64,000 bases of DNA from the NCBI GenBank assembly GCA_963930775.1, contig OZ005697.1, positions 868,001-932,000 of the forward strand, read 5' to 3'. Shown here in pieces: positions 1,593 through 61,928 of this stretch; the first letter of the stretch is position 1, and each line of letters starts with the position of its first letter. This DNA comes from Cliona cf. orientalis. Its lineage: Eukaryota > Porifera > Demospongiae > Clionaida > Clionaidae. A model generated the notes under the pieces. That model made no database searches. It saw only the letters and a list, made by a program, of their open reading frames with translations, and was not told the origin of the DNA. Made by a program: the position numbers and the translations under genes.

Positions 1593-4500
1593 TTATTTCT
1601 CTGGTGCAGGGGCTGTCCCTGTAATTTGTCCTGGTCTATCTCGACGTCCCCTGAGGCGATTCAAGAGTGATCTTTTTTCCCTCTCTCCCCCAACCCTCTC
1701 CTCTCTTGGACGATGGTGCTCCTTTTGATGCTCTTCTCTCTTCTTCACTTGCTCCTTCAGAAACGTTCTCTCCAACATTTTAAGGAGCCTCCGGTAAACT
1801 GACTCTCTTTGCTCCTGAAATTAGTATGTGTGCACAAGTGTATACAATTATGTGTGTGTGTGTGTATCTGTTGGGGGACCCCTCTCATTACTTGAGTATT
1901 ATGGCATAGTTGTGGCCACTAAACTGCCCACTCCAATGGCTGACAAACCACAGCTGCTGGCTCACCTCAGTGGGTTCACTCCTCTCTTGTTCAGTGGTGT
2001 GCTGCTCCAGCACTGCACATATAGCCTCTTCACCGCCACCCCTAGCCACCTCCAATGCTGTCAGTCCATTCTAGTGGTGGGAAAGGACATACAATAGCCA
2101 CATCAGGATATGCACATACATGTACACACTCTCTCTCTTGGTTAACTTCACAAGCTATAGAGGTCATCAAGATCACTAACAGAGCTATGCCATAGCACAG
2201 AGTGAATACACATTATTATGCTTACACATCTACAGGCTTCAATTCAATCACTATATAAATTGGCTATACCTCGTTTCTGATGTCCACTGCTGCTCCACAG
2301 TTGACCAATGCCTTCACTGCTTCTACTTTACCCCCCATGGCAGCCTCATGGAGAGCAGTGTCACCATCCTGTAGCATAAACATTTCACTTATTATCATTC
2401 TCTGTCTACACAATCAATACTCATTCTGGCCCACCTCTGATGTGCATGTGCTCTGTCTGTGCAATAAATTAATATTGCATGGCTCTACCTTGTTTCTGAT
2501 GTCCACTGCTGCTCCATGCTTCACTAACAGGTTGATTACTTCTACTCTACCCCAAAAGGCAGCCTGATGGAGGGCAGTGCGACCATACTGTAACATAATG
2601 CATCAAGTTACTATTGTACAAACAGTAGCTGTAGTGGAGTTTCACCTCGTCAGTGATGTTGGGATCAGCTTTAGCCGCTAGGAGAACACTCATAGTCTCA
2701 GTGAAGCCTTTCCGACTGGCCCATATTAGACCAGTCCAGCCACCCTAAAATTATGATATTACAATCAACATTAATTTTGTTATAAAAGACAGCTGACTGA
2801 CACAGTGACTAGTGACTAGTTAATTAGCTATAGTACAAGTGGAACAAAATAGCAATCAAATCACACTGCATTGTTACTCACCTACCGATGTACTAGTAGC
2901 ACAGCTACGTGTACATGTCAGTGCTGCTATGCTGAGCTAGCCTTAAGCCCCATTTACACGTAGGGCTTAACTCGGGTCAGGATCCGCGTTAAACTAACTC
3001 GCTTATGTGTAAACGCGCTAATCCACTTGTAAACCGAATTAAGCCCCATTTACACGTAGCGCTTAACTCGGGTCAGGATCCGCGTTAAACTAACTCGCTT
3101 ATGTGTAAACGCGCTAAACCGAATTAGTTGACCCGGGTTGTAACCCACATCCTGATGTGGGTTAGAAGTGGGTTACGTGCATAGTAGTGGGCTATGAATA
3201 TCTTAACTCGGGTCAAGCGCGTGCGTGTAAACGCGATTTAATCCGGTTCAGTTTAAACTGGTTTGGTACGTGTAAACGGGGCTTTAGTTGACCCGGGTTG
3301 TAACCCACATCCTGATGTGGGTTAGAAGTGGGTTACGTGCATAGTAGTGGGCTATGAATATCTTGACTCGGGTCAAGCGCGTGCGTGTAAACGCGATTTA
3401 ATCCGGTTCAGTTTAAACTGGTTTGGTACGTGTAAACGGGGCTTTAATTGTCCTTAGGTCCACCCAATCCTCTTACACTAATTTTATGTTTAGAGGAAGT
3501 CCGGGGATAAGCAGTTTAATTCCCACGGTTATAACATAATAACTATACTAATAAAAAGTTCAATATGTATAATTATGATCATACACTAAATTAATGAAAC
3601 CACACCCAAAACTCAACCCATAACTCAACAAATAATCATGATTACCGTACAGCTCAAAATTTTCGTGAAATCGCTGAAAATCCCATGATTGCAAAGTTTC
3701 GTGATAAACATTTCGTGATCGCCACATTTTTTCGTGATTACAATCGCGCTGCAGCACCCGTGCGGACAAATTCACGTTGTCACTCCACCCACAATTGCAT
3801 GTAGCTCGGCGTTGAGCTAGTTCAGTGTGAAGAAAAAGAAACTAGATAAGCTTATACGGGCCTGTCTTTCTGCCTTTAGCGCCTTCTGCTATCGTGTGTT
3901 TGGCCATCTTTTCAACGTGGTTGTTGGCAGATTCGATACAAGACGAAGGAAGTTGTTTGGACAAAGGTGCTTGCGGATTTGGTAGGCAACTTTTGCTCAT
4001 TTTCTGAAAGTAAGCGCACGGAGTCTGTACATTGTTAGCAGCGATTCAATACTTCGTTTCAGACAGTTCATACGTTCACTAGTATGTGTACAGTAACATG
4101 TATATGCACAATTGCACTTGTGATGCGCCTGTGCACACGGAACGTAGCCACACCCACAATAATACTAAATTTTCACGAGGAAAATTGTGATCAGAAGTCA
4201 AATCACGAAATTCATGAAAATATTGTACCACGAAAATTTGGAGCTATACGGTAGTTACCTGATCTCTGCTGAGCTGCACTGTGGTCAAGTAACATGTAAG
4301 AGATGTTACTTGACCACAGGGCAGCCCAGTAGAGAGCAGTCATGCCACTCTGTAGCCTCGTCCCTGATCTTTTTCAACGCAAAAGATCGGGGAGGCTGGG
4401 GACCAGGCTAGCCTCTCTGTACAATGTCATATAGGCTAGCCAATCAAAAAATGACTGTGCTATAGTTACCTCTTCTTGAATGTCTGTCCTGGCTCCAGCT

Positions 4501-7500
4501 TTTAATAACAAATTAACGATTTTTGAATATCCCTCGTAGCAAGCCCAAATCAAAGCTGTTTCCCCGATCTGGAGGATACAAAATCATTACTCCACATAAT
4601 CAGGGAAGATTAATAGTAGACATCACTATTAATTTTGTGTACCAGAATTATTTTGGTTGACCCAAATGTTCATAATTATTTTATTACGATGGAACCCCGC
4701 TTAATGAACACCCCTCAACGGTGGACACCTGTGATATAACAGACAATTCTGAATGTCTGGATTGTATTTGCATAGACTTCAATATATTCAATATATTCAA
4801 ACCCCCTCAACAGCGAATATCCCGCTATTCCGTATAATGGACACTTACTTTGGTCCCGTTTGAGCCTGCGCAATAGTGAACAACCTCACATATTGGCCAG
4901 TTACCCACACCCACCATTAAAATCAGTCAGTTTCAGCGACCAGTAGCTACAGTAAAGCCTAAATATGTCTCTAATTCTTGCCTAGGAGCTGTCAGTTGAC
5001 AGACCTCTCATCAGTACAGTCTTTGTTATCGTCCACAGTTGTGCTTTATCATAGCTGGCTGCGATTGAAGGAGGGGCGTGGTCAACCACTAATCCCTGAG
5101 CTAAGAACACCTCGCTACAGCGAACAAAATCTTTGGTCTCAATGGTGTCCGTTTTAGAGGGTTCCACTGTATTACACTACTCACATTATTCTGTTGGTCC
5201 ACATTAGCCCTGTGCTCTAGTAGTACCCTGGCTATTTCAACATGTCCACGTCGACATGCTGTGATCAGGGGAGTGTCACCGTCTTCATCCTGCATGAGTT
5301 TTGAGAACACACACTGAGTCACATGCACAAAATCTTCCAGGTCATAATGGACACACACATGTGATTGTAATACCAGGGACTATACATTATCTTTCAGATG
5401 GACTGGAAACGCGCGCGCCGCCCTATTACAAAGTACACATTTCCGTTTCTGCAATCATCGTTACAGGTAAAAAATATCGCAAGCGGTAAGAAGCTACAAA
5501 GGCTGCTTAGAAACACCAACGGTGGTCGACCTGACAAAGGAGTCAGCGTCTGTGAGGGCGTCTACAGTAGACCATAGTCGTAATACAATGTGCTGACAGC
5601 CATTTTGTGGTGAGTGTGCTTCTGAGTGCGCACTCTATGAGTGAAAAAGTTCAGTATGGCTACTTTTCATGTCCTGGCAATACTTTGTGCTGGATAAGTG
5701 AAGCTCTCATAGGATTCTACACAGCGCGAGTAGTAAACCCCAATCTTGCTTTACTGGGTGCACAGTGTTCTTTTGAGCTGGAAGGTACTCTAGGAGCACA
5801 AGACCCCCTAAGTTTAAAAAATTTACTTGACAAAGATGGACACCTTTTGTGCTGGATAATCTCACGAACTAAAACAGACATGAGCATTGTTCAAACGTAA
5901 AAAGTAAGTTTACCCGTTGCTTCACTGGGTAAACAACATTTGGTGTGCTAAACATTATCTAAGAGTTTCCTACAAGCCTTCATAGAAGTACTAGACGGCC
6001 ATATTGACTGTCTTGGCACCTAGTCCAGTATAGTAGCAATACTGTCAGACGTTCCGGGTACACTTCCGGGCGTAACGATAATTGTAGAATTTTCGCGAGT
6101 GTAATAATGTAGCGTTTCCAGTCCATCTGAAGGATAATGTATAGTCCCTGGTAATACCACACAAGGGGGTGGAGTGGAATAAATTAATTAAGAAAGAGCT
6201 GCACATGCAGGAAGAGGTGTGGCCTATACCAGTCCCTCCCACTCCGTATCAAACACTGCCTACCCCAACAATTGAACCAGTTGCCCAGTTTGCCTAAACA
6301 GAACGCCTCAACCCTGGATCCATTTCTCTACATCACATCACATCACATCACATCACATCACATCACATCACATCAGATCACATCACATCACATCACATCA
6401 CATCACATCACATCACATCACATCTTACTGGAAGGTCCACTTGAGCTCCATACTTCAATAGCACTTTCACACACTCTGTCTCACCAGCAGAGCTTGCACG
6501 GTGAAGAGCTGATTGGCCACCCTGTAGTGTAAGACCAGTCAGTATGAATAACATCTGCTGTCAATGCACATGTACTATTGAGATTCTTACTTCATCTTGG
6601 TAGTTCACATCCGCGCCAAGGTCAAGCAGTACTGTGACCTCTTCAATACATCCTTCCCTACTTGCTTTGATCAGGGTGTCGTTGATATCACCAGTCTGCA
6701 TGAGTACAGAGAATGCACAATAATAATTAATGTCCCATAATTATTATTAATTAATCATGATGTACACACCAAAATAATATTGTGATGGATATGGTACACA
6801 GTGGTGTCAGTAAGATATGTTGGCCCTGCAAGCCTCCTTAGTCTTGATGTGGGAATGGAAAGAGGCCAAAAGCTTTGAGGTGACCATAGGCCACGCCCCC
6901 AGTGCTGACAATAACCTCAATTATGTAGAGGTTGAAAAATTGCTTCATCAGCAAACAATAATATGCAGTACGGTATCGTACATATGCAAAACTAGAGCTC
7001 TATAGAGAACATACCCCGCGTGCGCTGCAGCGTCGATGTCAGATCATATCTATGATCAGAGAGCTTGATGATGCGAGCACCTGTTGACAACCTTTACCTA
7101 CATATTGTGCGCATGAGCAGAGAGCACTTAGTGGGTACGTAGTGTCCATAGGTGTGGCCAATAAATCGCAGTATTTGCAACGCTCGTGGGCCTTAGCAAA
7201 CGATTCGAAGCATACTGAAGCCAGTTTTTCGGCGATATTGACGGATATGCTGTATTTACGAGTCGCTCAGATGCCTAGATCTCCAGATCTGGTGATTTTT
7301 GTGCTAACGACAGACTACAGACGGCAGACAAAACCGATCACATTACCCCTTGCGCATGCGTGTGGGATAATTATCCAAAAAGCTCATCAAACTTTCTGCA
7401 CTATGAAGAATACGCTACACACCCTTAGCAGTGTACCATACATGCACAACTTACAATCCACTCCTCATCATAGAGAGTGCGGCCGTCCAGTTGGACTTGA

Positions 7501-9576
7501 ACTATGTTGTGCTGCTGGTAGAACCCAAGAACCTTGGAATAAGACACTGCAATCACAGATGAAACTTGCGGTGGGACTAGCCAGGTGATGATCAAACTCC
7601 CCCCGACAATCTTCTTGATGATAGCTGTCAGTGGAGGGAGGTTGAACTTCTTGATCAATACCTTCCAGAGTGTGTCAATGTAGCTCATAGTAATGCTTGA
7701 AAAGTTGATTGTTCTATCAAGTTTCAGTGTCACTTTGAGCTCACGATAAAGCTTCTTATATTCCTTCTTTGAGAGTGATTGCTGATTTTCATCATTAGAA
7801 TCGTCACTGGAATCGTCATCAGGATCATCCAGCTCAGAGAGATCAATGAAATCAACAATCTTAGTAGCTACAAAGAACCCAGAGAGCTGGTCCTTGTATT
7901 TACTCACGAGCTTTCTTGCTGGATCCTCATCATCAGGTAGGAATGTTTCAGCCAGCTCCTCCAGAGGACCATAGTGATCGTAGCGCCAGAGCCCAGACTC
8001 GGTTACGATGTTGAACAGCTTAGTGAGGTCAGGAGCTTCAGGGATGCAGCATTCACTCTGGAAGAAGGACACCAAGAACTGATGAACGTCTTTTAATTTC
8101 ACTTGGCGAGCTTCCATGGCCGATCGAACTTCGACCTGGAGCGATGAGAATTGACGTTTGATCTTGCGCATGACTGTCTCGGTCATTTCTAGGCCTGCAG
8201 TGATGAACATAAAGCACTCATCAATATTACCAGCAATGCCCTTTGAATTTTTGATTAGGTTCATGCACAAGCTGAAGCTGATAAGAAAGCATGATATTAT
8301 GCATTAAGGCCACTTCAACTTAATACTCTGTTCTCGGGCCCAACCAACCCTACTTTTGAAGAAAACTTTTGTTAGTTTTTAAGGTCAGAGGTTGGGTTTA
8401 ATTATGTTCTGAGCATGTGCAATAGATTTTTTGAGAAAAGACTCGATTACTGACTTAGGACATGCCCAACTAATAGAATTTACAAGCCAACCTACCAATC
8501 CTATCCTGAGGAAAGGCCAGCCCGAGACACAGAATATTAAAATTAATTGAAGTGGCCTTATATTATATTAGGCGGGGCAAACTGAATTCGCTGTTTATCG
8601 TCACCGCCCGCATGGATTTTCAGATTTTCTCAAAATTTTTCAGATTTCATATTCAATACAGTAAACATATGGCACTTTGAGCCCCACCCACCGATCGCGT
8701 TAATTAGAGGGCGGGGCGTCGGCGATTTCGAGGTTCGAGCATAGCTATCCAGCACTCTCTACTGGTTTGAAATATGAAAAATGACCGCCCGCCCGCATGC
8801 AAAATCGAAATCTTTGTGACGATAAACTGTGAATTTAGTTTGTCACGCCTTATGTAATTTTTTTTACGATCACAACTCAAAGTTGCAAAGGGGGGGGGGG
8901 GGGTCACTCCCATAGGCGCTGTGTCCAGCGCTGCAACAGGGGTCAAAATGCAGTCAAATGGTCAAGACACTTCTTGGGGATCGGTCAAACGGTCAAGCGG
9001 TGTTCTGGGCCCTATCTCCAGCATAGCTAGGCAGCCAAGAGGCGTGGCCGAGATTTTGTGCATGCGCAGTTAGTCGATGGTCAGCAGTCAAGGCCATTTT
9101 TAGACGGTCAAAGATCTTGATCCTGGTCGCAGCTCTGGATACAGTGCCTATGGGAGTGACCCCTCCCCCCCCCTCCTTGAGGTCTATCATAATTTCGAAC
9201 CATTCATCAGCAACACAGAGGTAGACTTACGTGCTTTGGTTTCGTCCTGGTCTGGAGCTGGAGAGTCTTCGGGGATCGTTTGGCTACCAACTGCTCCCAC
9301 ATATTTGCTTCTGATGTTTGCGGCGATCGTATTCTTCCCCATGGCGTTCAAGGCGTTTGCCAGCTTGTCCCAGCTGGCCTCGGGGTCATAGTCCAGCCAC
9401 TTGGACACCATCATTCCTAGGCGATCCTCGACTTCTTGACTGGAGCCCACTGGCTTCAGCATGTGCTCGGGCAGATCTAGCTGGGTGCCAAGTCCGCGCC
9501 ATTCGGTAATCACATCCCTCAAGGCAGTGACGATGTTCTTGAGCTTGAACTTGATATCCTCTGCACGGTCAGACAT
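1593..9576 (-). CDS. Array gene A: death domain / conserved region / ankyrin repeats / basic tail (R5 exon damaged)
   Basis: Exons 5' to 3': death domain 9576-9231; conserved region 8194-7455; ankyrin R1 6695-6591, R2 6521-6429, R3 5289-5185, R4 4568-4470, damaged R5 4349-4259, R6 2744-2646, R7 2587-2489, R8 2368-2270, R9 2070-1966; tail 1814-1593. The start ATG is followed by SDRAEDIKFKLKNIV, and the death-domain pattern includes WRGLGTQLDLPEHML and WDKLANALNAMG. R5 is 91 nt instead of 102 because its middle was replaced by a perfect hairpin; using it shifts the frame, skipping it leaves 703 aa in frame. Introns hold at least six inverted-repeat elements. The tail (73 aa) is rich in K, R and E. 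Death-domain and ankyrin identity are sure; a role in immune or death signalling is inference. Confidence 0.8.
2945..3446. mobile_element. Harbinger-like MITE with both ends tandemly duplicated (gene A, R5-R6 intron)
   Basis: The left end AGCCCCATTTACACGTA (complete twice, at 2946 and 3042, period 96) is the inverse of the right end TACGTGTAAACGGGGCT, and the right half is a 160-bp direct duplication (3127-3286, 3287-3446). A TTA lies on both sides, fitting the 3-bp TWA target duplication of PIF/Harbinger elements. The sister genes lack the insertion at this place. There is no coding capacity. Confidence 0.7.
3645..4251. mobile_element. TA-flanked MITE beside the damaged R5 exon (gene A)
   Basis: Terminal inverted repeats CCGTACAGCTCAAAATTTTC and the inverse of GAAAATTTGGAGCTATACGG, with TA on each side, split an intron motif that is continuous in other copies (AATCATGATTAGTTACC). 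The right end lies one base from the R5 donor GTAACT, so the element is inserted at the very start of the intron. Length 607 bp, non-coding. The TA target suggests a Tc1/mariner-type source. Confidence 0.75.
4279..4319. repeat. Perfect 17-bp hairpin replacing the core of ankyrin exon R5 (gene A)
   Basis: CTGTGGTCAAGTAACAT (4279-4295) and its exact reverse complement (4303-4319) flank a 7-nt loop. The outer parts of exon R5 on both sides are still recognisable, so the palindrome replaced the exon core. This looks like a template-switch event. Confidence 0.85.
4350..4422. repeat. Small fold-back insertion near R5 acceptor (gene A)
   Basis: GCCTCGTCCC ... GGGGACCAGGC with an inner stem around GATCTTTT/AAAAGATC sits between the R5 acceptor and intron sequence shared with the other genes. 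A related short palindrome (GCCTCGTCCCCAGG ... GGGGACGAGGC) occurs at 15324-15354. Confidence 0.5.
4687..5169. mobile_element. TA-flanked MITE shared by the R3-R4 intron of all genes (copy A)
   Basis: The ends are CAGTGGAACCCCGCTTAAT (first bases diverged here) and the inverse, ending GGGTTCCACTG, flanked by TA. The interior has GGACACCCCTCAACAGCGGA units. The same element sits in the same intron of the other genes, about B 14086-15723, C 21730-22498, D 29372-29813, E 35267-35650, F 43762-43892 (cut short), G 48319-48714, H 58209-58689. It therefore inserted before the gene family duplicated. Ends of this type are usual for Tc1/mariner or pogo-like MITEs. No transposase frame is seen. Confidence 0.75.
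5374..6150. mobile_element. 777-bp hAT/P-like non-autonomous element (gene A, R2-R3 intron)
   Basis: Near-perfect inverted repeats of about 39 bp start CAGGGACTATACATTATC on the left and end with the inverse, GATAATGTATAGTCCCTG. The target GTAATAC (5367-5373) is repeated at 6151-6157. Other genes have the single uninterrupted GTAATACCAC. Target length of 7-8 bp and CAGGG ends fit hAT or P superfamilies. Internal frames are short and unrecognised. It is unique to gene A, so it is recent. Confidence 0.8.
6331..6420. repeat. (CATCA)n tract at the R2 donor, gene A (about 18 units)
   Basis: Pentamer CATCA (TGATG on the transcribed strand) begins immediately inside the intron after the R2 5' splice site (GTAAGATGTGATG). 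The same tract follows R2 in the other genes with different lengths: B about 4 units (16091-16110), C 3 (22881-22895), D 3 (30135-30149), E 5 (36669-36693), G 11 (49102-49156), H 13 (59939-60003). F has lost R2 and the tract. Confidence 0.9.
6990..7369. mobile_element. Dispersed element with ACTAGAGCTCT and GCGCATGCG ends (gene A, exon 2-R1 intron)
   Basis: It begins ACTAGAGCTCTATAGAG with ATACCCCGCGTGCG inside and ends CCCCTTGCGCATGCGTGTGGG. The same termini in opposite orientation bound 42437-43080 in gene F, and a diverged relative bounds 58867-59745 in gene H. Intron sequence of other genes is continuous across the insertion. It contains an unrecognised + strand open frame (7142-7588 region) that I do not regard as a gene. 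Confidence 0.55.
8571..8849. mobile_element. Harbinger-like MITE (gene A, exon 1-exon 2 intron)
   Basis: Imperfect inverted repeats (left GGCGGGGCAAACTGAATTC with GTTTATCGTCAC, right the inverse with GTGACGATAAAC and GTCACGCC) are flanked by TTA at 8568-8570 and 8850-8852. Length 279 bp, non-coding. Confidence 0.65.
8889..9175. mobile_element. Fold-back element with poly-G end (gene A, exon 1-exon 2 intron)
   Basis: A run of G is followed by GTCACTCCCATAGGCGCTGT, and the inverse (ACAGTGCCTATGGGAGTGAC plus C-run) closes the element. The arms are about 40 bp with mismatches. Non-coding. Confidence 0.6.
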
Positions 9577-9703
9577 GGCTAGCTAGTTCCTTGTTTATCC
9601 GCTTTTATGGGGGACGCACCCACAGCCAAATATGGCGATATTGAGGCATCTTGCGCATGCTCGGTAAGGTAACGGATAACGCCCACGTTTGTAGGCGGGG
9701 CTC
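9577..9703 (-). promoter_or_regulatory. Proximal promoter of gene A (reference for the array)
   Basis: Reading upstream from the ATG: a TATA-like CATAAAAG (9603-9610), a perfect CArG box CCATATTTGG (9626-9635; SRF-type site, overlapping a YY1-like CCATATT), an NRF1-like TGCGCATGC core around 9652-9660, and a GC/CACCC segment GCCCACGTTTGTAGGCGGGG (9681-9700). The block is nearly identical before seven of the eight genes although the sequence beyond it diverges, which supports a regulatory role. Factor names are inferred from motifs only. Confidence 0.55.
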
Positions 9704-9891
9704 GTTGAAAATAGCACAATCTCTTTGTGTTGGAGTGACACTGTGCATCCAAATTAATTAATTAAATGTCTGATCAATACGTAGCACACTCGATACATAT
9801 CCAGACAAAATCTCTCCATATCAACAAATTAAACTGCTTGTCAGTAGCAAGGACGCACATTGGCCTAACTTTGTTGCCTGTCCCCAGACTT

Positions 9892-10806: not shown

Positions 10807-13800
10807 TTACTTCTCTGGTGCAGGGGCTGTCCCTGTAATTTGTCCTGGTCTATCTCGACGTCCCCTGAGGCGATTCAAGAGTGATCTCTTTTCCCTCTCT
10901 CCCCCAACCCTCTCCTCTCTTGGACGATGGCGCTCCTTCTTCTGATGCTCTTCTCTCTTCTTCACTTGCTCTTTCAGAAACGTTCTCTCCAACATTTTAA
11001 GGAGCCTCCGGTAAACTGACTCTCTTTGCTCCTGAAATTAGTATGTGTGCACAAGTGTATGTACACAATCATTTTGCTGGTGTGTGTGTGTGTATCTATT
11101 GGGGGACCCCTCTCATTACTTGAGTATTACGTCATAGTTGTGGCCACTAAACTTCCCACTCCAATGGCTGACAAACCACAGCTGCTGGCTCACCTCAGTG
11201 GGTTCACTTCTCTCTTGTTCAGTGGTGTGCTGCTCCAGCACTGCACATATAGCTTGGTAGCCGCCACCCCTAGCCACCTCCATGGCTGTCAGACCCTCCT
11301 AGTGGTGGGGAAGGACATACAATGGCCACATCAGGATATGCACACACTCTCTCTCTCTCTTGGTTAACTTTACAAGCTATAGAGGCCATCAACATCACTA
11401 ACACAGCTATAGCATGGCAGCTGCACAGAAAACACTCTCCAGTCACTTCTTTCTTCGATTTTGTATACTAACGATCTATAGAGTGGATGCTTCTATTATG
11501 AGTCAGCATGTATTATGGGTCATCCATACTAACAAATGTGGAAGTGTCCCAATTGCTGGATCACTAAACTGTACCTTACAAGATCTATCATCTGATAAAT
11601 TGTCTCTGCTACCTGATGTATTTTCATGTGAGTTTACACATGCTTTGTGTTGAATTTATAAAAAGAAGGAACTTCTGTTTTTGCTGTCCTACCTAAGCAA
11701 AATGTATCAGTCTTAGCCCATCCAAGTGCCATTAGTTTGTGTCACACCATATGCCTCACATCTAGATGGCTGCCATGGTCATACCATCACTTGAAAGAAC
11801 CTTGTGACTGCTGATTTACATGCCAGTTAAGGTGGTGACTCATAATACCAGCAGGCGACCCATAATACATTCAGTAATATGGCTGACAAAATAATTTTTA
11901 AAAAATCATGATTTTTTCTACATGCGACATCGTTCGCAACCCATGCAATAGACACCTTGGGAAGTCCTTAAAAAATGCAACCACAATAATAACCCCCTAA
12001 TTACCTATATGTGATCTATCACTGTTTAAGTGACTCATAACTGCAACATCTACTCTGGACACACTTATCTTTTCGTTCTTTTCCATCGAAATGCTGGCTG
12101 CTGCTCTCTTTCCAACGTTTTGGCAGCCATCTGGCTCTTTGACTTAGTGGGCGGGGCCACGTATTTGCCATAAACGGCGAATATACGGACTTCCGCGTGC
12201 AACGTACGTAGCAATGTTCACTGCAATTTTTTTGCAATACTTTAGTACGGGCGATCCGGGTATATTTTTGCTCATATCTCCATGACTACACGGGCTAGAG
12301 ACTTCAAATTTGCTGGAGCAATAGTTCAAAGGTTGTAGTTGGTAATGGTGGCCTTAACTAAAAAATTTTTTTCCGCGCATTATGCTTGGTTTCCTCGTGG
12401 AGGGTCACATATAATATGCACAGAAGTAATCAGGGTTTTATGCAGATTCTTGTTTGACAGGAGAAAGTTGTGCGTACAAGCACACAAAATTTTGTTATCC
12501 TTAAGATACGCATTGTTATGCTGAAATTCCAGCAATTTACTTCTAAAAATAATATTCCAGTTTTATTATCATAACTCGATGTTTTTCAGTCAAAGCTACA
12601 AGCTTAAGTTACTTTAATAATGAACCCTTGACCATCTCCCCCAGTAGCTGCCCAGTGTAATGGTGCATGTGGTAAAAGGTCGTCAATAGAATACGTACAC
12701 ATCGATCGATGCCGCACTGGCCCCAGAAATCATGGAGATGGCGTCTAAGATCGACTCTCAACCTTGGTAGCGACAGGTTTCGATGCTTCAATCACAGAGA
12801 CGACCTCGACAGCACAGTATTCCTTCCGAACTTCAGGTTGGTCGCGTTCCAGCAGTCTCGCGCAGGCCAGCCCCTTGTGACTGATGCGTGCTATATATAG
12901 CACAAGGCTATCCACGGCATTACGTAAGCCAAGAAAACACGTGAAGTTCAGGTTGGTCGCGTTCCAGCAGTCTCGCGCAGGCCAGCCCCTTGTGACTGAT
13001 GCGTGCTATATATAGCACAAGGCTATCCACGGCATTACGTAAGCCAAGAAAACACGTGAAGTTCAACCAACAGTGCTTCTCAGAGAAAGTAGCGCTCAGC
13101 TTGTAATCTATTCGCTGGATACACGCGTAAGATACTCTACATATTTACTGACTTTCAAGTCCCAGAAAGGCTCCAGCGAGGCCCTGGGTTTTTTCATAAT
13201 TACCTCATAGGTTGCATCATAATTTCATCATAATTTCATCATAGATTACACCACAATTACCTCATAACCACAGAAAAGTAAATTGCTACTGGGGAGATAA
13301 TTATTATGCTGGGGGAGGGGGATCCTCCCACCTCTGTATGAAACCATGACAATGCATTGTTACACACCTACTGATATACTAGTAGCACAGCTAACTACAT
13401 GTCAGTGCTGCTATGAGTGCTGGGCTAGCCTTGTCCTTAGCTCCACCCATCCTCTAACACTGGTATGTATAATTCAATAGATTACTGAGGGAGTCTGGGG
13501 ATGAGGCTGCTGCTATGGAAACAATGAAGCCACATCCAAAGATTATTAGGTACTGCATAAATTAAATTTTGTAGCAGGAATTTTTTTATGGGAATTCAAA
13601 ACTGGTTTCCTCACAACTGGCAAAATCTGCTAATAATTTTGGTAACACCAATAATAAGCTTGGTGATATCAGTGTGACACACTACCACTAACTTTTAATT
13701 TCCACAGTTATGGCATTAGCTACTGACAAAAGGTTGTACATGTACTGCTGGAATGAAACTATGCAATACCATGATCATATACTGAATTAGCACTAGCATG

Positions 13801-48900: not shown

Positions 48901-51360
48901 TACAATCATGTGATTGTAATACCATATCAGGGGGTGGGAGTGGAATAATTTAATTAAGAAAGAGCTGCACATGTAGGAAGGGGTGTGGCCTATACCAGCC
49001 CCTCCCACTCTATGTCAAACACTCTATGTTAAACACTGTCCACCCCAACAATTGAACCAGTTGCCTAAACAGAACGCCTCAACCCTGGATCCATTTCTCT
49101 ACATCACATCACATCACATCACATCACATCACATCACATCACATCACATCACATCACATCTTACTGGAAGGTCCACTTGAGCTCCATACTTCAATAGCAC
49201 TTCCACACACTCTGTCTTACCATCATCGCTTGCATGCCAAAGAGCTGATTGGCCACGCTGTAGTGTAAGACCAGTCAGTATGAATAACATCTGCTGTCAA
49301 TGCACATGTACTATTGAGATTCTTGTTATTTTACCTCAGCTTGGTAGTTCACATCTGCGCCAAGGTCAAGCAGCACTGTGACCTTTTCAATACATCCTGC
49401 CTCACTTGCTTTGATCAGAGTGTCATTGATATCACCAGTCTGTATGAGTACAGAGAATGCACACTAATAATTAATGTCCCATAATCATTATTAGTTAATC
49501 ATGATAATAGTATTATACACACCAAAATAATATTATGATGGATATGGCACACAGGGGGTGTCAGTAAGACATGTTGGCCCTACAAGCCTCCTTAGTCTTG
49601 ATGTGGGAATAGAATTAGGCCAAAAGCTTTGAGGTGATCATAGGCCACGCCCCCAGTGCTGACAATAGCTTCAGTTTTGTAGAGGTTGAAAAATTGCCTC
49701 ATCAGCAAATGATAACATGCAGTATGGTGCATAATAATAATAATATGCAAAATTATTCTAAAAAGCTCAGCAAATGTCCATACTATGAAGAATATGCTAC
49801 ACACCCCTAGCACTAGTCTTGTGCTCAGACTCCACTCCAAAAAGGGGGAAAGGGGTCTGGTGAATTGGACCGTTTCTTTGGTTTGGCCAGCTCGGTGGGC
49901 GCACGCCGACACGGCTGTGGTGAAACAAACCTTGGTCTGATTGGTCGATGGTCATGGGCACGCGGGCCAGCAATTCAAATTTATACAGCAGGCAATGGCG
50001 CTGCAGTTGGTGAGTCATATGACTACGCTAAAGCTACAATCTCATTGGAGCGCTCAAATACCATTCCCTGGCCCAAGGATTGTTTCCAAATTCACCAGAC
50101 CCTTTTCCCTCCTCGAGGGTGGGGTCTGGAGACTACCCTAGCACATGCATAACTTACAATCCACTCCTCATCATAGAGAGTGCGGCCGTCCAGTTGGACT
50201 TGAACTATGTTGTGCTGCTGGTAGAACCCGAGAGCCTTGGAATAAGACGCTGCAATCGCAGATGAAACTTGCAGTGGGACTAGCCAGGTGATGATCAAAC
50301 TCCCCCCAACAATCTTCTTAATGATAGCCGTCAGTGGAGGGAGGTTGAACTCATCGATCAATGCCATCCAAAGTGTTTCGATGTAGCTCATGGTCATGTC
50401 CGAAAATTTGGTTGTTCTATCAATTCTCAGCTTCACTTTGAGCTTACGAAATAGTTTCTTGGATTCCTTTGGTGAAAGTGATTGTTGACCGTCATCTTCA
50501 CGTTCAGAATCAGCATCAGAGTCGTCTTCAGAATCATCAAATTCAGAGAGATCAATGAAATCAACAATCTTGGTAGTAACAAAGAACCCTGAGAGCTGGT
50601 CCTTGTATGTGCTCACGAGCTTTCGTACAGGATTATCATCGGGTATGTATGTTTGGGCTAGCTCTCTTAGAGGACCGTAGTGATCGTAGCGCCAGAGCTT
50701 AGCCTCGGTTACGATGTTGAACAGCTTAGTGAGGTCAGGAGCTTCAGGGATGCAGCATTCACTCTGGAAGAAGGACACCAAGAACTGATGAACTTCACTC
50801 ACTTTCACCTGTCTAGATTCCATGGCCAATCGAACTTCGACCTGGAGTGACGCAAATTGACGTTTGATCTTTTGGAGCACAGTGCGAGCCATTTCTTGAC
50901 CTGTAGAAAAATCAACAAGGCACGAAAATTTTTCTTTAACTATGATCACAGCTCATCCCTAAGAAGCTCTATAATGTAATATATGCTACGTATACGTCAA
51001 CAGCACAGACATACATGCTTTGGCTTCATCCTGGTCTGGAGCTGGAGAGGCTTCGGGGATCGTTTGGCTACTAACTGCTCCCACATACTTGCTTCTGATG
51101 TTGGCAGCGATCGTGTTCTTCCCCATGGTGTTCAAGGCGTTTGCCAGCTTGTCCCAGCTGGCCTCGGGGTCATAGTCCAGCCACTTGGACACCATCATCC
51201 GTAGGTGACCCTCGATGTCTGGGCTGGAGCCTATCAGTTTGAGCATGGATTCTGGCAGACCTAGGTGGATACCTAGGTCATTCCACTCGGCGATCATATC
51301 CTTCAAGGCAGTGACGATGTTTTTTATCTCGAACTTGATATCACCTGCACAGTCAGACAT
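45972..51360 (-). CDS. Array gene G: complete reference copy, nine ankyrin repeats
   Basis: Exons: death domain 51360-51015; conserved region 50900-50158; R1 49439-49335, R2 49257-49165, R3 48834-48730, R4 48202-48104, R5 48039-47938, R6 47129-47031, R7 46972-46874, R8 46757-46659, R9 46461-46357; tail 46196-45972. Predicted 739 aa: death domain about 7-95, conserved region 117-363 with acidic linker, repeats 364-665, charged tail 666-739 with RLRGRRDR (possible nuclear signal). Repeats show TALHxAAxxGxxEVVxxLLxxGA consensus. The exon 1 donor is GCAT|GTATGT instead of GCAC|GTAAGT, so the junction codon becomes Cys, not Arg. Death domain class 2, exon 2 right-half type, tail NMAERIF. No frameshift or stop seen, so probably functional. 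Confidence 0.9.
49814..50135. mobile_element. 322-bp Mutator-like MITE (gene G, exon 2-R1 intron)
   Basis: The ends are TAGTCTTGTGCTCAGAC and the inverse of GTCTGGAGACTA, with inner inverted GGGTCTGGTGAATT/ AATTCACCAGACCC. The 9-bp target CCCTAGCAC is duplicated (49805-49813, 50136-50144). The right end lies only 22 bp inside the intron from the exon 2 donor. Confidence 0.82.
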
Positions 51361-52955: not shown

Positions 52956-55900
52956 TTACTTCTCTGGTGCAGGGGCTGTCCCTGTAATTTGTCTTGGTCT
53001 ATCTCGACGTCCCCTGAGGCGATTCAAGAGTGATCTCTTTTCCCTCTCTCCCCCAACCCTCTCCTCTCTTGGACGATGGCGCTCCTTCTTCTGATGCTCT
53101 TCTCTCTTCTTCACTTGCTCCTTCAGAAACGTTCTCTCCAACATTTTAAGGAGCCTCTGGTAAACTGACTCTCTTTGCTCCTGAAATTAGTATGTGTGCA
53201 CATATGTACACAGTTATGCCAAAGTGCTCAAGTGTGTGTGCATCTGTTGGGGGACCCCTCTTCATTACTTGAGTATTATGGCATAGTTGTGGCCACTAAA
53301 CTGCCCACTTCAATATGGCTGACAAACCACAGCTGCTGGCTCACCTCAGTGGGTTCACTCCTCTCTTGTTTAGTGGTGTGTTGCTCCAACATTGCACATA
53401 TAGCCTCTTCACCGCCACCCCTAGCCACCTCCATGGCTGTCAGACCCTCCTAGTGGTGGGGAAGGACATACAATGGCCACATCAGGATATGCACATACAC
53501 TCTCTCTCTTGGTTAACTTCACAAGCTATAGAGGCCATCAACATCAGTTATGCCATAGCACAGAGTGAATACACATTATTACACTTACGGCTTCAAGTCA
53601 ATCATTATCATAGAGTCGGTAGACTCTATAAGTAGGGATGGCCTGGATATGCCATATATATAATACATTACAAATACCCAAATATCTCAAAATAGGTAAT
53701 TTAATGAAATTTCTAAGTGTGAAAATCAGAATCTCCAGCAAATTATCTATCTAACAAGACCAAGATCATTCATCAAATCAATTGTATATGCCAGAACCAG
53801 ATGTTCAAAAAATGGCCATTTCTCAATCTTTCTTTCTTTCTCATTTCCAGGGCTAACTCAAGACTGTCTGGACCTCTCACCTTAGTTTTCATATAAATCC
53901 ACTCTATTTTGTAGCGCGCAGTGCAGTGGCACGCTAGTTTGGCATTATCTCGACAGTTACGTAATAGTGGGTGTGTACGGCGCATTAATTATTGGGTGTG
54001 TCTGATACGCCATTTTTAAATATAATGCGCATGCTCGGAATGGGTTGCCATGGTCAAGTCATGTGACTGCGCCTGGCCTTAGGCGAGGTCTAGTCTAGCG
54101 CTAGCGCTATCGCTATCGCTAGTGCGTGCAGCGGTACGCTGGATCGATCATGGACATGAGTATGAAGAAGCAAGGCTCGGGGAGCGGTAAGGCGCTAGGC
54201 ATAGGCGAGCTACTCGCTAGCGCGTGCAGCACTAGTGGTCCGCTGGATTGATCATAGATATCATACCATCGCAAGACTCGAGGAGCGGTATAAAAGTACA
54301 GATCATAAAATTATGCCGGGTAGCTAGCTAGCTGCTGCCAACAATAAAACTTAGAACTTTATTTTCTCCCTAAGCGGAAGGATCTCATCACTACTTGGGC
54401 CGCCTAAAGCAGCCTTCTTTGTCAGCCTGCTTCATCATATTAATACAAGGCATATGAATGCTAGTTAATGAGGGGCATGGCTACGAATTTTGCAAACTTT
54501 GGTACCTCCCATCTTCCACTTAATTACACTGGACAAAAATTGTGAGCAACCCATGTAAGATGGCATTGATAAATTACACGAAGTGCATTAAAAAAGAAGA
54601 GAAACAAGTATAAAAACAATTGAATAAAATTGAAGAATGAAGTAGGGATGGCAGGATCAAAAAGTACACAAACAAGAGATATCGCAACTACTATACATCC
54701 CTACGCTTGCTTTTTGAGGGATGCAAAAATATAACCAGTAATAATGCGATTGAATCAAAACTGATAAACCCAAACCATCGTGACAACTAGGGAACAACCT
54801 GAATGTCTCCCATATACCACACTCAACAAACACTTTGACATTATTAAAATTAATAGGTGCATAATAGTCGAGAAAAGCAAGCGTAGGGATGTAGAGTAGT
54901 TGCGATATCTCTTGTTTGTGTACTTTTTGATCCTGCCATCCCTACTTCATTCTTCAATTTTATTCAATTGTTTTTATACTTGTATAAATTGGCTTTACCT
55001 CATTTCTGATGTCCACTGCTGCTCCACAGTCGACCAATGCCTTCACTACTTCTACTTTACCCGCCACGGCAGCCCGATGGAGGGCAGTGTCACCATGCTG
55101 TAGCATAAACACTTCACTTACTATCATTCTCTGTCTACACAATCATCATAGAGTCGGTAGACTCTATAAACAGGGATGACCCGGATATGCCATATTATAT
55201 GTAATACATTACAAATTTCAAAATATCTCAAAACAGGTAAGTTTGTAAAATTTGTAAGTGTGAAAATCGGAATCTCCAGCGAATGAGCAAGCCATATAAG
55301 ATGGTATTGATAAATTATACTAAGAGCAATAGAAAAAAAAAGAACAGAAACAAGTATAAAAAAACAATAAAATTGAAGGATGAAGTAGGGATGGCAGGGT
55401 CAAAAAGTACACAAGCAAGATTTGTAAGGCATAAGCATCTGCTATACATCCCTATGCTTGCTTTTTGAGGGGTGCAAAAATAATGCAATTGAATCAAAAC
55501 TGACTATCCTGAACCATCGTGACAACCAGGGAACAACCTGAATGTCTCCCACGTGCCGCTCTTGACAAATACATCAACACTAATAGGTGCATAAAATCGA
55601 GAAAAGCAAGCGAAGGGATGTATAGCAGATGCTTATGCCTTACAATCTTGTTCGTGTACTTTTTGACCCTGCCATCCCTACTTCATCCTTCAATTTTGCA
55701 TTCTTGGATAGACCCATTGCAATGCTATGACAATTTGAGCAAAAAATGACTGAAAATGGCGACCGCAGTGCACATATCGACTAATAGCAGCGAAATAATA
55801 GTGGTTTCAAACTTGAACAAGGCTAATTCCAGTGAAGGAGTTCCTACTCTAAATGTGGCCAGCAAAGTTGAATTTCCGAAGTCTTTCTGGTCTACGCTAC

Positions 55901-58900
55901 AGTCCCGTAAAGTCCAAGAAGCAAAAATGGCTGATCAAGAACTGTTGAAAACTGTTTATTTCAGTGTATCGGTGCAGTGGCTTGCCCTTGCCACCATTCA
56001 GTCTTATTTGTGACAGTTTTGACACTTGATGCGCTGTCTTCTGTGAGTGAGCAGGCTATGAAAAGGGCCAAAAATCGTGAGCACATACAAGGACCAGCTC
56101 TCAGGGCTCTTTGTTACTACCAAGATTGTTGATTTCATTGATCTCTCTGATTTTGATGATTCCAAAGACGACTCTGATGCTGATTCTGAACGCGAAGATA
56201 ATACTCAACACTGATCACTTTGAATCCATGATTATAATTATGATAGCTCCCCCCCTTGAAATAGTATGGCCTTGGAATGAGTCTTCTTTGATTCTTCAAG
56301 CCAACTACCAACCTGCCAATACCATAATATAGCCAACAACAGTTGCGCTCGAGTGGCATAGTATTCTATTAATAGCCACCCCACATTCACCTTCACAAGC
56401 CACACCTCTATAGCTAAGATTGAGGGTGTGGCTTTCTCGTTGGCTATTTGAGAATCGCAATTTAGCTTATATAGCACCATTCGCAATCGTTTAACTATGC
56501 ATTCAAAAACCGACCTACAGTAATGTTATGCTTACACATCTACAGACTTCAATTCAATCACTTATAATAGCTAATTCACTACATGTATGCAATTAAACAC
56601 AGATCCTACAATAATGCTGAAATTGGCTATACCTCGTTTCTGATGTCCACTGTTGCTCCACAGTCAACCAATGCCTTCACTGCTTCTACTTTACCCCCCG
56701 CGGAAGTCTGATGGAGGGCAGTGTCACCATGCTGTAGCATAAACACTTCACTTACTATCATTCTCTGTCTACATAATCAATACTCCTTCTGATGTGCATG
56801 TGCTCTGTCTATGCAACAAATATTGCATGGCTCTACCTGATTTTTGATGTCCACTGCTACTCCATGTTTCACCAAGAGGTTGATTACTTCTATTTCACCA
56901 CTCCAGGCAGCCTGATGGAGGGCCGTGTCACCATACTGCAGCATAAACACTTCACTTACTATCATTCTCTGTCTATACAATCAATACTCTTTCTGTCCCA
57001 CCTCTGATGTGCATGTGCTCTGTCTGTGCAATAAATATTGCATGGCTCTACCTTGTCTCTGATGTCCACTGCTGCTCCATGCTTCACTAAGAGGTTGATT
57101 ATTTCTACTTCACCCCCCGCGGCAGCCCTATAGAGGGCAGTGGCACCATCCTGTAACATAATGCATCAAGTTACTATTGTACAAACAGTGGCTGTAGTGG
57201 AGTTTCACCTCGTCAGTGATGTTGGGATCAGCTTTAGCCGCTAGGAGAACACTCACAATTTTGGTGTATCTATACAAACTGGCCACCATTAGACCAGTCC
57301 GGCCATCCTAAAATGATAAAAATTTAATAAGCTACAAGTGGTGTTTGATTATACACAGTAGAAATCAAATCACAACCAGGGTTTTATGCAGATTCTTGTT
57401 GGATGGGGGAAAAGTTGTGCATGCACCCCATCCTCTAACACTTGTATGTCTAATTGCTGATGCTGAGGGAGTCTGGGGATAAGGCTGGTGCTATGGAAGC
57501 AATGAAGACACACCCAAAGATTATTAGGCACTACAGACATTGGTAGCCAGAATTTTTTATGGGGAATTTAAAATTGGTTTTCTCACAATCAGCAAAAATC
57601 TGCTAGTAATTTGATAATCACCAATAATAACTTTGGCTATATCGATACACTACCACTAACTTTTAATTCCCACAGTTATGGCATTAGCTACTGACAAAAG
57701 GTTGTACATGTACTGCTGGAATGAGAATCATACACTAAATCAGCACTAGCATGGATAACAATGAAACCACACCCAAAACTCCACCCACAAGTTAACAGAT
57801 AAACATGATTAGTTACCTCATCTCTGCCGAGGTCCACAGCTGCACCATGGTCAATTAAAATCTGGACTATGTTGGCATAACCATCATAGGCAGCCCAGTA
57901 GAGAGCTGTCTGGCCGCTCTGTACACAACATAACATTATCACATATAGCTAGCCAATCAAAAACTGTCTATGTGCTATAGCTACCTGTTCTTGAATGTCT
58001 GTCCTGGCTCCAGCTTTTAATAACAAATTAACAATTTCTGACTTCTCCCAAAAGCAAGCCAAAATCAAAGCTGTTTTCCCATCCTGGAGGATACAAAATT
58101 CATTACTCCACATAATGAGGAAAGATTAATAGTAGATATCACTATTAAAATTTTGTGCATCATTATTGACCCAAAATGTTTATAAATCATCATAATTATT
58201 CTATTATAGTGGAACTCCGCTTAATGAATACCGGGCCTCAATGGCGGACACCTGCAATATAACAGATAGCTAATTCTGAATGTCCGGATTGTATTTGCAT
58301 AGACTTCGATATATTCAAACCCCCTCAACAGCGGACACCCCGCTATTCTGTGTAACGGACACTTACTTTGGTCCTGTTCGAGCCTGTGCAATAGTGAACA
58401 ACCTCGCATAATGGCCAGTTAGCCACACCCACCATTAAAAATCGGTCAGTTTCAGCAACCAGTAGCTACAGTAAAGCCTAAATATGTCTCAAATTCTTGC
58501 CCAGGAGCTGTTTGTTGACAGACGTCTCATCAACACGGTCTTTTTCATCGTCCACAGTTGTGCTTTATCATAGCTGGCTGCGATTGAAGGAGGGGCGTGG
58601 TCAACCACTAACCCCTGAGCTAAGGACACCTTGCTACAGCGGTCAAAATTATTGGTCCCAATGGTGTCCGCTTTAGAGGAGTTCCACTGTATTACACTAC
58701 TCACATTATTCTGTTGGTCCACATTAGTCCTGTGCTCTATTAGTGCCCTGGCTATTTCAACATGTCCACCTCGACATGCTCTGATGAGGGGAGTATCACC
58801 GTCTTCATCCTGCATGAGTTTTGAGAATACACACTGAGTCACATGCACAAAATGTTCCAGGTCATAACTAGAGCTCTCTAGAGCACAAACCCTTGGCACA

Positions 58901-61900
58901 TTGCGTGGCATTAGCTGCAAGCAGGCATGGTAATGATAATACAACGATACTATTATATAGTAGCTTCCAGGATTTCATCTAGCAATAAAGATTTGGGGTG
59001 GAAGCGCAATAAATGAGTGGGCGCATTTAGCACACCAAGTTCCTTGGGACATATTTTTAGGAGAATTTCTTTAATTCATCCAGACTGTTTCAGGTAATTT
59101 TTTTATCAAAAACAAATACTAGTGGTTTGATTTGGTGACTTATTGTGATATTATGATGCTTAATTTAGATAAAGTCAAATCCTTAAGGGTGAAGCTTCCC
59201 CCCTGTCCCCCCACTGGATGAAACCTTGCCTTCTCTTTCAATGTTGCAAGTAGAAAAGGGTAGCTACTAAAGGATTGCACTCACGAGCAATGAGAGCTGG
59301 GGGCGAGGCTAATTAATGTTATAGCACAGCAGTTTGTTCACTGTCGTCGGCTTCATCCATCGAAAGCTCGCCTGGAGCTAGCGAGGAAGGCGGCAGTGAC
59401 CAGCATCAATGATTATTGTAACCGTGCCTACTGCGCATGTGCTGAGGGTTATGCATACCGTATATAGCACATGATACACAACATTCTATTTATACGTAAG
59501 GTCATGCTATCGCTAGCCTGGAAAAGTCAAGAAGCTTAGAATCAGCAAATGATGCCAAAACTGGTGAATAAAGCATTTTCGGAGAAATCCAAGCAAATTA
59601 TGCATTTGGAATGCCATAAGTAACCATATGACACCGCAAATTGGACTCGTAAATGAGGTATGTAGCAGCTAAGGTGGTAACAGACAGACAGACAGACAGA
59701 CAGATAGTACGACTACCGTAACCCTCACGCATGTGCCGAGGGTTAATGAACACACACATGTGATTGTAATACCACATCAGGGGGTGGGGGTGGAGTAATT
59801 TAAAAGCTGCACATGTAGGAAGGGGTGTGGCCTATACCAGCTCCTCCCACTCCGTGTCAAACACTGCCCATCCCAACAATTGAACCAGTTGCCCAGTTTG
59901 CCTAAACAGAACACCTCAACCCTGGATCCATTTCTCTACATCACATCACATCACATCACATCACATCACATCACATCACATCACATCACATCACATCACA
60001 TCACATCTTACTGGAAGGTCCACTTGAGCTCCATACTTCAATAGCACTTCCACACGCTCTGTCTCACCAGCAGAGCTTGCACAGTGAAGAGCTGATCGGC
60101 CATACTATAGTATAAGACCAGTCAGTGTGAATATCAATATACATGTACTATTGAGATTTTATTATTTACCTCATCTTGGTAGTTCACATCTGCGCCAAGG
60201 TCAAGCAGCACTGTGACCTTTTCAACACATCCTATCTCACATGCAGCAATCAGAGCACGGTTGATATCACCAGTCTGGAGAATATACACTACTAATTAAT
60301 GTCCCATAATTATTATTATGATGTACACACCAAAATAATATTGTGATGGATATGGCACACAGTGGTACCATTAAGACATATTGTGATGGATATAGTGATG
60401 GATATAGATTCAGAGATATATACTTATAAATTACTTACACAATACTGTACATTTTGTCTTGCACCTTCAGTGGTGTGTTCAACAAATTACAAATTATAAA
60501 TTGGCCCTGCAAGCCTCTTTAGTCTTGATGTGGGAATGGAATTAGGCCAAAAGCGTTGAGGTGACCAATTGAAAAATTGCCTCATTAGTATGTAGTATGG
60601 TACCATACATGCATAATATACAAATTTATCCTAGAAAGCTCATCAAACTTTCCGTACTATGAAGAATATGCCACACACCCCTAGCACCGCACCATACATG
60701 AACAACTTACAATCCACTCCTCATCATAGAGAGTGCGGCCGTCCAGTTGGACTTGAACTATGTTGTGCTGCTGGTAGAACCCAAGAGCCTTGGAATAGGA
60801 TGCTGCAATCACAGATGAAACTTGCGGTGGGACTAGCCAGGTGATGATCAAACTCCCCCCAACAATCTTCTTAATGATAGCCGTCAGTGGGGGGAGGTTG
60901 AATTTATCAATTAACGCCGTCCAAAGTGTTTCGATGTAGCTCATGGTCATGTCTGAAAATTTGGTTGTTTTATCGATTCTTAGTTTCACTTTGAGCTCAC
61001 GATAAAGCTTCTTGGATTCCTTTGGTGAAAGTGGTTGTTGACTGTCACCTTTGCGTTCAGGATCAGCATCAGAGTCATCTTTGGAATCATAAAAATCAGA
61101 GAGATCAATGAAATCGACAATCTTGGTAGTAACAAAGAATCCAGAGAGCTGGTCTTTGTATTTGCTCATGAGCTTTCTTGCTGGATCCTTATAGTCAGGT
61201 AGAAATTTCTCAGCCAGCTCTTCCAGAGGGCCATAGTGATCGTAGCACCAGAGCTTAGCCTCGGTTACGATGTTGAACAGCTTAGTGAGGTCAGGAGCTT
61301 CAGGGATGCAGCATTCACTCTGGAAGAAGGACACCAAGAACTGATGAGCGTCACTCACTTTCACATGTCTAGCTTCCATGGCCAATCGAACTTCGACCTG
61401 GAGCGACGCAAATTGACCTTTGATCTTTTGGAGCACAGTGCGAGTCATTTTTTGACCTGTAGAAAAAAAAATTAATAAGGCACATAAAATTCCAATATTA
61501 AACTATGATCACATCTTATCCTTAAGAAGCTCTATCATTTGATATAATATGCTACTGTACGTCAGCAGCACAGTGAACTTACGTGCTTTGGCTTCATCCT
61601 GGTCTGGAGCTGGAGAGGCTTCGGGGATTGTTTGGCTACTAACTGCTCCCACATATTTGCTTCTGATGTTTGCGGCGATCGTATTCTTCCCCATGGCGTT
61701 CAAGGCGTTTGCCAGCTTGTCCCAGCTGGCCTCGGGGTCATAGTCCAGCCACTTGGACACCATCATTCCTAGGCGATCCTCGACTTCTTGACTGGAGCTC
61801 ACTAGCTTGAGCATGTGCTCGGGCAGATCTAGTTGGGTGCCAAGCCCGCGCCACTCGGTGATCACATCCCTCAAGGCGGTGACGATGTTCTTGAGCTTGA

Positions 61901-61928
61901 ACTTGATATCTTCTCCACGGTCAGACAT
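52956..61928 (-). CDS. Array gene H: eleven ankyrin repeats (R7 and R8 duplicated)
   Basis: Exons: death domain 61928-61583; conserved region 61456-60711; R1 60274-60170, R2 60104-60012, R3 58809-58705, R4 58083-57985, R5 57918-57817, R6 57307-57209, R7 57150-57052, second R7 56935-56837, R8 56731-56633, second R8 55097-54999, R9 53449-53345; tail 53180-52956. Predicted 806 aa, the longest copy. Death domain class 1, exon 2 right-half type (linker FYDSKDDSDADPERKGDSQQ), tail KMLERTF. The second R8 exon lies between two related long inverted repeats, and the intron between the R8 copies contains an inverted piece of exon 2. Head-to-head with dynamin. Confidence 0.85.
54060..54270. other. CpG-rich block with GCTAGCGCTATCG repeats (gene H intron)
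   Basis: Short tandem and near-tandem units (GCGCTAGCGCTATCGCTATC; two copies of GTGCAGC followed by CGCTGGAT and GATCAT) stand out from AT-rich surroundings in the second R8-R9 intron. Purpose unknown; not shared with other genes. Confidence 0.45.
54604..54983. repeat. 111-bp inverted repeat next to the second R8 donor (gene H)
   Basis: Arms 54604-54714 and 54873-54983 are reverse complements with one mismatch. The 158-nt loop has no gene. The right arm ends 15 bp from the 5' splice site of the second R8 exon. Confidence 0.9.
55369..55697. repeat. 96-bp inverted repeat upstream of the second R8 exon (gene H)
   Basis: Arms 55369-55464 and 55602-55697 are reverse complements with several mismatches and are related to the arms at 54604-54983 (shared AAGTAGGGATGGCAGG and GTACACAA). 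A flanking direct repeat with GAGTCGGTAGACTCTATAA occurs at about 53608 and 55148, so the whole compound block is present twice. Confidence 0.85.
55756..56013 (+). CDS. Unrecognised 85-codon open frame in gene H intron
   Basis: MATAVHISTNSSEIIVVSNL begins the frame; it ends ATIQSYL then TGA. It has no recognised domain or signal peptide. It lies just before the + strand exon-2 fragment and may be part of the same inserted segment. Kept as a low-confidence open frame only. Confidence 0.2.
   Translation: MATAVHISTNSSEIIVVSNLNKANSSEGVPTLNVASKVEFPKSFWSTLQSRKVQEAKMADQELLKTVYFSVSVQWLALATIQSYL
56077..56212 (+). pseudogene. Inverted fragment of array exon 2 inside gene H intron
   Basis: On the + strand this reads TYKDQLSGLFVTTKIVDF then IDLSDFDDSKDDSDAD and SERED, i.e. 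the middle of exon 2 (right-half type), opposite to the array genes. No splice signals or neighbouring array exons accompany it. The primary H transcript therefore contains about 136 nt antisense to exon 2 of its own family. Confidence 0.88.
58867..59745. mobile_element. Element with ACTAGAGCTCT and CACGCATGTGCC ends (gene H, R2-R3 intron)
   Basis: It splits GTCATAATGGACACA, which is continuous elsewhere. The ends resemble the 6990/42437 family but are diverged (AACCCTCACGCATGTGCCG). It contains a (CAGA)n microsatellite at about 59683-59704. No gene recognised. Confidence 0.5.

Follow-up and report, generated by a model that had tools for sequence, protein, structure and literature searches.

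A tandem array of Death-domain genes in the sponge Cliona cf. orientalis, with ankyrin repeats diversified at the positions of designed binders, as a candidate receptor repertoire

Eight neighbouring genes of the sponge Cliona cf. orientalis join a constant Death-domain front to ankyrin repeats that vary at a few defined positions. They occupy positions 1593–61928 of the window, by which we mean the whole 64,000-nucleotide stretch analysed (C9:868001–932000, contig OZ005697.1; the genome has 216.8 Mb in 149 contigs). A constant signalling front, a variable ankyrin face, a modular number of repeats and exchange between paralogues make up a signature that points to intracellular ankyrin receptors that form a germline repertoire, with a variable recognition surface coupled to constant death-fold signalling. 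We put the probability of this reading at roughly 0.6; what is said below of ligand, expression and function of the proteins is deduced from sequence.

All eight genes are complete, lie head to tail on the minus strand and follow one order: a Death domain, a module of ∼245 residues, 4–10 ankyrin repeats, a cap repeat and a basic tail. The array is bounded by the stop codon in the last exon of gene 1 (1593) and by the ATG of gene 8 (61928). Exon 1 measures 346 nucleotides (nt) in 8/8 copies and ends in phase 1; exon 2 (722–752 nt) shares an identical phase-1 junction with it in all eight and ends in phase 0, and the frame is kept across every one of these joins over introns of 83–1210 bases. 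Each ankyrin exon (93–105 nt) encodes one repeat, has phase 0 at both ends and falls into one of the positional classes A–H. The terminal exons encode the cap repeat (Z) and then the basic tail (T), 73–74 residues long and carrying the stop. Since a repeat exon begins and ends in phase 0, its gain or loss leaves the reading frame intact:

1593..9576, minus strand: gene 1, 7 A–H repeat exons; a degenerate E at 4272–4346 is excluded from the model
10807..19271, minus strand: gene 2, 4 A–H repeat exons; D, F, G and H missing
19654..24741, minus strand: gene 3, 7 A–H repeat exons; H missing
26546..31857, minus strand: gene 4, 9 A–H repeat exons; H doubled; tail lost
33020..39516, minus strand: gene 5, 7 A–H repeat exons; H missing
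40531..45518, minus strand: gene 6, 6 A–H repeat exons; B and C missing
45972..51360, minus strand: gene 7, 8 A–H repeat exons
52956..61928, minus strand: gene 8, 10 A–H repeat exons; G and H doubled

Spliced in silico, all eight models have GT/AG at every junction, a length divisible by three and no internal stop. Seven contain a tail exon with the stop and encode 601–806 residues; in gene 4 the tail exon is gone and the cap exon has no GT donor. A preliminary description of this DNA had reported an eight-copy tandem array of shared order and strand, open in most copies, and the models agree with it down to the outer coordinates, gene 4 having no tail and gene 1 one degenerate E. It had also assigned the same exon order and introns to all copies. 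This holds for exon 1, exon 2 and the junction phases, but not for the number of A–H repeat exons, so that the exon sets are not identical in all copies.

The case for a recognition surface comes from the repeat codons. Exon 1, exon 2, the cap and the tail are under purifying selection, with ratios of non-synonymous to synonymous substitution rates (dN/dS, or omega) of 0.34, 0.28 (0.30 without gene 2), 0.42 and 0.50; values for the signalling exons span 0.26–0.34. Repeat positions 1, 3, 11 and 12 reach an omega of 5.65 versus 0.48 elsewhere (likelihood-ratio test statistic, LRT, 165 against omega 1; class-bootstrap interval for omega 4–8). This set had been chosen beforehand as the positions randomised in designed ankyrin binders; of 40,920 four-position sets, four score as high, the pre-chosen one included. 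A pooled scan of the 33 positions found omega significantly above 1 at 1, 3, 8, 11 and 12 only. The codon tests used 57 of the 58 intact A–H exons, leaving out class A of gene 2 (102 nt, one codon short); the degenerate E of gene 1 and a partial D of gene 4 were not counted as intact. Diversification is strongest in classes B and D–G and moderate in C and H, and the cap is conserved. The earlier suggestion that a diverging array of death-fold and repeat genes might serve recognition is thus strengthened: omega lies far above 1 at five positions, four of which sit on the binding face of designed ankyrins, and the signalling exons are constrained.

In the designed ankyrin repeat protein (DARPin) G3, residues 46, 48, 56 and 57 are among the randomised ones (PMC3602593). 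In the PDB DARPins 2bkg_A and 7dnf_A repeat position 1 aligns to residue 46, if shared numbering is assumed, and the four residues then correspond to array positions 1, 3, 11 and 12 (PMC3602593, PMC8683736). The array, being made of natural genes, departs from the design in that position 8 (residue 53) varies in addition to these four, and in that randomised residue 78, the last of the previous repeat, corresponds to array position 33, which is not variable (omega 0.35).

The pace of this diversification was set against that of the introns. Over all pairs, intron bases alone differ by 19% on average, and of 175 pairs kept for intron-only counts, 174 fall within divergence bands. At intron divergences of 4%, 8%, 12.5%, 17% and 30% the five codons differ at 0.45, 0.40, 0.41, 0.34 and 0.39 of their nucleotides, so the difference is equally high in the closest and in the most distant pairs. 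One exon may serve as an example:

46874..46972, minus strand: diversified class G repeat exon of gene 7; variable codons 1, 3, 8, 11 and 12

Between this exon and class G of gene 6, four of the five variable codons differ, and the adjoining introns differ at 2/166 sites. In 12 disjoint pairs the introns differ at 110/1987 sites (5.5%), the variable codons at 28/60, 28/60 and 12/60 for bases 1, 2 and 3, and the remaining codons at 23/328, 16/328 and 33/328.

These counts bear first on relaxed constraint, by which the five positions would merely be the freest on the surface of an ankyrin repeat. They do vary in ankyrin repeats generally. Relaxation, however, cannot surpass the neutral rate, and at bases 1 and 2 the five codons show 47% difference where introns show 5.5%; single-base codon changes number 19 non-synonymous to 4 synonymous, and omega is near 6. 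Both the codon models and the intron-only control contradict relaxed constraint, and we rejected it as very improbable. The genes might instead encode ordinary scaffolds or adaptors with a cytoskeletal or developmental role, the paralogues having sub-functionalised on different host partners. Ankyrin repeats often act as scaffolds, and Death domains occur with ankyrin repeats in host signalling proteins such as p105/NF-kB and ANKDD1. Against this, the binding positions do not diverge in step with the introns between the 4% and 30% bands, which indicates ongoing turnover and not a one-off specialisation, and we consider a scaffold role unlikely.

The variation itself could be driven by codon-focal mutagenesis or micro-templated exchange, acting as a somatic or germline diversity generator. 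Variable codons differ as much in pairs with 2/166 or 1/148 intron differences as in old pairs, 21 of the 44 differing codons in the 12 disjoint pairs carry two or three base changes, and third bases are raised (12/60 versus 5.5% in introns). The raised third bases and multi-base codons leave room for a special mutational process. Bases 1 and 2 nevertheless change more than twice as often as base 3, as protein-level selection predicts, and this speaks for selection on the protein. No mechanism of this codon-focal type is known to us from animals, and we find it improbable as the driver. A diversity-generating retroelement was also considered: the variable codons, judged by eye, are not limited to adenine changes, and no search for a template or reverse transcriptase was made. 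A bolder form of the receptor reading would see here a natural DARPin-like germline immunoreceptor repertoire in a non-bilaterian, with binding codons renewed ∼10 times faster than adjacent introns, perhaps via a dedicated diversification process. Such a process may be targeted mutagenesis, or conversion between paralogues in which introns become uniform and binding codons are drawn anew, in either case going beyond selection on ordinary point mutations alone. We hold this bolder form to be doubtful. We found no report of codon-level DARPin-like diversification in an animal family of this kind in the literature searched, which covered few subscription journals.

A sister array of three genes lies on the opposite strand at C9:985.5–1004.5 kb (L063–L064), ∼55 kb past the window. 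Each gene has exon 2 and the A–H, Z and T set, and two of the three also have a Death exon in the 1.5 kb upstream; a stop interrupts the tail of the middle gene. Its top five ranked positions are identical to those of the window array. Its variable codons differ at 0.45, 0.41 and 0.25 for bases 1–3 versus 0.20 in the flanks, which were not trimmed to introns.

The family extends well beyond these two arrays. The exon 2 protein matches at least 108 places in the Cliona genome, the only one searched, some of them fragmentary or with stops, and the tail protein matches 29. Thirty loci with exon 2 were fetched, comprising the eight window copies and 22 outside. On the same strand and within 1.5 kb, 17/22 outside loci have an upstream Death exon (Death identity down to ∼40%) and 19/22 have downstream ankyrin exons. 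The order of Death, exon 2 and ankyrin exons is therefore not peculiar to the window array, and its sharing by the paralogues gives independent support for the exon joins. In one paralogue (L005) a single 377-codon frame spans both Death domain and exon 2 module. The genome also holds at least 150 Death matches (150 of 1292 candidates were scored) and 65 death effector domain (DED, PF01335) matches, none of the latter at exon 2 places; Death and DED matches form dense clusters, for example at C6:6.3–7.0 Mb, C10:0.84–0.90 Mb and C4:11.16–11.24 Mb, alongside the clusters of exon 2 on C9 and C10.

The size of the family is relevant to another interpretation, allorecognition, in which the repertoire would separate self tissue from that of conspecifics during fusion or rejection and a mismatch would lead to cell death. 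It would leave an identical molecular signature. Among the fungal NOD-like receptors (NLRs) that have variable repeats, some act in heterokaryon incompatibility (PMC12222747), and Kaur et al. list allo-incompatibility in sponges and cnidarians among cell-death roles (PMC8195603). A very large family spread over many contigs is, however, not what one allodeterminant locus would look like, and we see allorecognition as possible rather than probable.

Paralogues have also exchanged segments. In seven genes, either of two types of Death exon is found with either of two main types of exon 2, all four combinations being present, which implies recombination; gene 2 carries a third exon 2 type. Trees were made separately for each exon class. 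Recombination does not readily explain differences limited to codons interspersed with conserved ones. Of the eight classes, B ranks lowest both in the proportion of synonymous differences (pS, 0.033) and in intron difference (0.113), its variable codons being diversified nonetheless, and its region is possibly a conversion hotspot. In genes 1, 5, 7 and 8 the class B exon is followed immediately downstream by an (ACATC)n microsatellite (6330–6424, 36668–36697, 49101–49160 and 59938–60007).

Several other local features were noticed. Gene 4 holds a partial class D repeat of 16 residues (29199–29246) just upstream of the intact D, perhaps a remnant of exon duplication. In gene 2 the large intron at the place of the missing F, G and H contains 2.1 copies of a 115-base unit with 99% identity (12828–13065), and gene 1 has near-perfect duplications of 96 and 160 bases at 2943–3117 and 3124–3450. 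A 12-base tandem repeat in gene 3 (23881–23933) encodes the acidic linker of exon 2, whose length differs among copies. On the plus strand at 56068–56214, within the ankyrin region of gene 8, the genome search found a reversed exon 2 fragment (63% identity, query residues 102–149, one stop).

Exon 1 matches Pfam Death (PF00531) in 8/8 copies at E <= 0.01; the three copies scored (1, 3 and 7) give 29.8, 29.8 and 25.7 bits at a cut-off of 22.6. The ankyrins of spliced gene 7 match Ank_2 (PF12796) with 185.6 bits (E 2e-55) and Ank (PF00023) with 170.6 bits, the other seven genes being assigned from exon alignment only. Only Death and ankyrin models exceed the cut-off in spliced gene 7. No NTPase of the NACHT or NB-ARC type was seen in spliced gene 7 at E <= 0.1 or in exon 2 of any of the eight copies at E <= 10, and as NLR and STAND proteins carry an NTPase between effector and repeats, the array falls outside them.

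The exon 2 module, left as an unknown middle region in the preliminary description, fits TRADD-N in its order, predicted fold and motif, short of proof from a sequence profile. Its second half, modelled alone in AF2 from eight sequences, gives with moderate confidence an RNA recognition motif-like beta-alpha-beta-beta-alpha-beta fold (predicted local distance difference test, pLDDT, 72.2; predicted template modelling score, pTM, 0.64). A model of the entire exon 2 (47.5) was discarded as too poor. At the motif described in PMC8195603, the 31 aligned exon 2 copies of profile A5 (28 of 34 locus references and three of the eight window copies, L062 excluded) show Gly-Ser in 28, Gly-Cys in one and Lys-Cys in two. 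For the helical half, hhalign of 18 rows against the eight Death exons gave nothing, and a Death_3 match in 1/31 copies (E 0.21) is at chance level. Other candidates were set aside: Transposase_21 (7/8 copies, best 18.9 bits at a cut-off of 28.6), RFC1 (5/8) and Rad60-SLD (2/8) are all under cut-off and were rejected as spurious for this reason, and the single NCBIfam match among three proteins (E 0.083) is far under its own. PDB sequence searches gave at best E 0.13 for exon 1 and 0.96 for exon 2; with the 31-row profile, a lectin at E 1.3e-4, built of seven weak stretches none of which is significant singly, was judged spurious, as were two weaker entries.

An architecture of this kind is already described, and the earlier view that it could not be named and formed an undescribed system is not supported. 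Kaur et al. (2021) count 357 TRADD-N proteins in Amphimedon, mostly with Death-like domains in front and ankyrins commonest behind; their sponge expansion has one to three Death-like domains, TRADD-N and a variable C-terminus, most often ankyrins or SH3-LRR (PMC8195603). This NCOA6-clade expansion, lineage-specific to a sponge, resembles the array in its Death-like front and in an ankyrin C-terminus, and its C-terminus is often fast-evolving (PMC8195603). The array has the order and the ankyrin C-terminus, its exon 2 being unproven as TRADD-N by profile, and the 108 or more exon 2 matches in its own genome make it a large expansion too. The available text of Kaur et al. gives architectures and counts, whereas codon diversification, one repeat per exon and the basic tail are seen in the array only (PMC8195603). 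The earlier interpretation is partly supported.

Fungal NLRs offer a close parallel for the repeats: Dyrka et al. (2014) report ankyrins with five positively selected positions, varying repeat number and conserved frameworks, all as in the array, and selected and polymorphic sites that are concave with one exception (PMC4986451). They differ in possessing a NOD NTPase and in varying their repeats within one locus among strains, whereas the array varies among paralogues and gives each repeat an exon (PMC4986451). In two sponges, ankyrin-domain genes and DEATH-domain genes were among those raised after exposure to microbial patterns, though these are not shown to be of the array's family (PMC6208332).

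It should be noted that several points weigh against a receptor repertoire. The exon joins are deduced from frame, phase and consistency over the eight copies and the paralogues. The class A repeat shows no significant selection (LRT 2.5). The codon test is our own code, not checked against PAML, and its trees were built from exons with 120-base flanks, which include the neighbouring exon at short introns; recombination between paralogues violates the assumption of a tree and weakens such tests. In the sister array the five positions are rich in synonymous differences too, and a simple count therefore gives them a dN/dS of 1.02, so the positions are replicated better than the strength. At the front of the protein, Pfam finds TRADD-N in 0/31 aligned exon 2 copies, and a genome search with PF13820 was silent, as was its control. 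The exon 2 half yields modest fold matches, among which ACT and further ferredoxin-like chains equal TRADD; since the fold search does not set TRADD apart from ACT domains, we do not claim proof of TRADD-N. No death-fold relationship of the helical half was confirmed.

If the proteins are receptors, a mechanism can be outlined. The constant N-terminal module comprises the Death domain, a helical domain and a TRADD-N-like domain. The concave ankyrin face would bind a changing protein ligand, be it of a microbe, a virus or a self/non-self marker; binding would cluster or free the N-terminal module, which could then nucleate a signalling complex, with inflammation or cell death as the outcome. 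The basic tail may serve to localise the protein or to bind nucleic acid or membrane. Kaur et al. made a related proposal, that the ankyrins of TRADD-N proteins might sense invader molecules and trigger a TRADD-N switch (PMC8195603).

Death/TRADD-N proteins number tens to hundreds in several marine invertebrates, with roles that are predicted only (PMC8195603), and the array points to the most likely role of one such group. Since its repeats vary where engineered ankyrin binders are randomised, its proteins probably recognise fast-changing ligands, and the variable positions are few and defined enough to be open to testing. Finally, the array suggests convergence between animals and fungi, both using the concave face of ankyrin repeats for recognition and linking it to death signalling.
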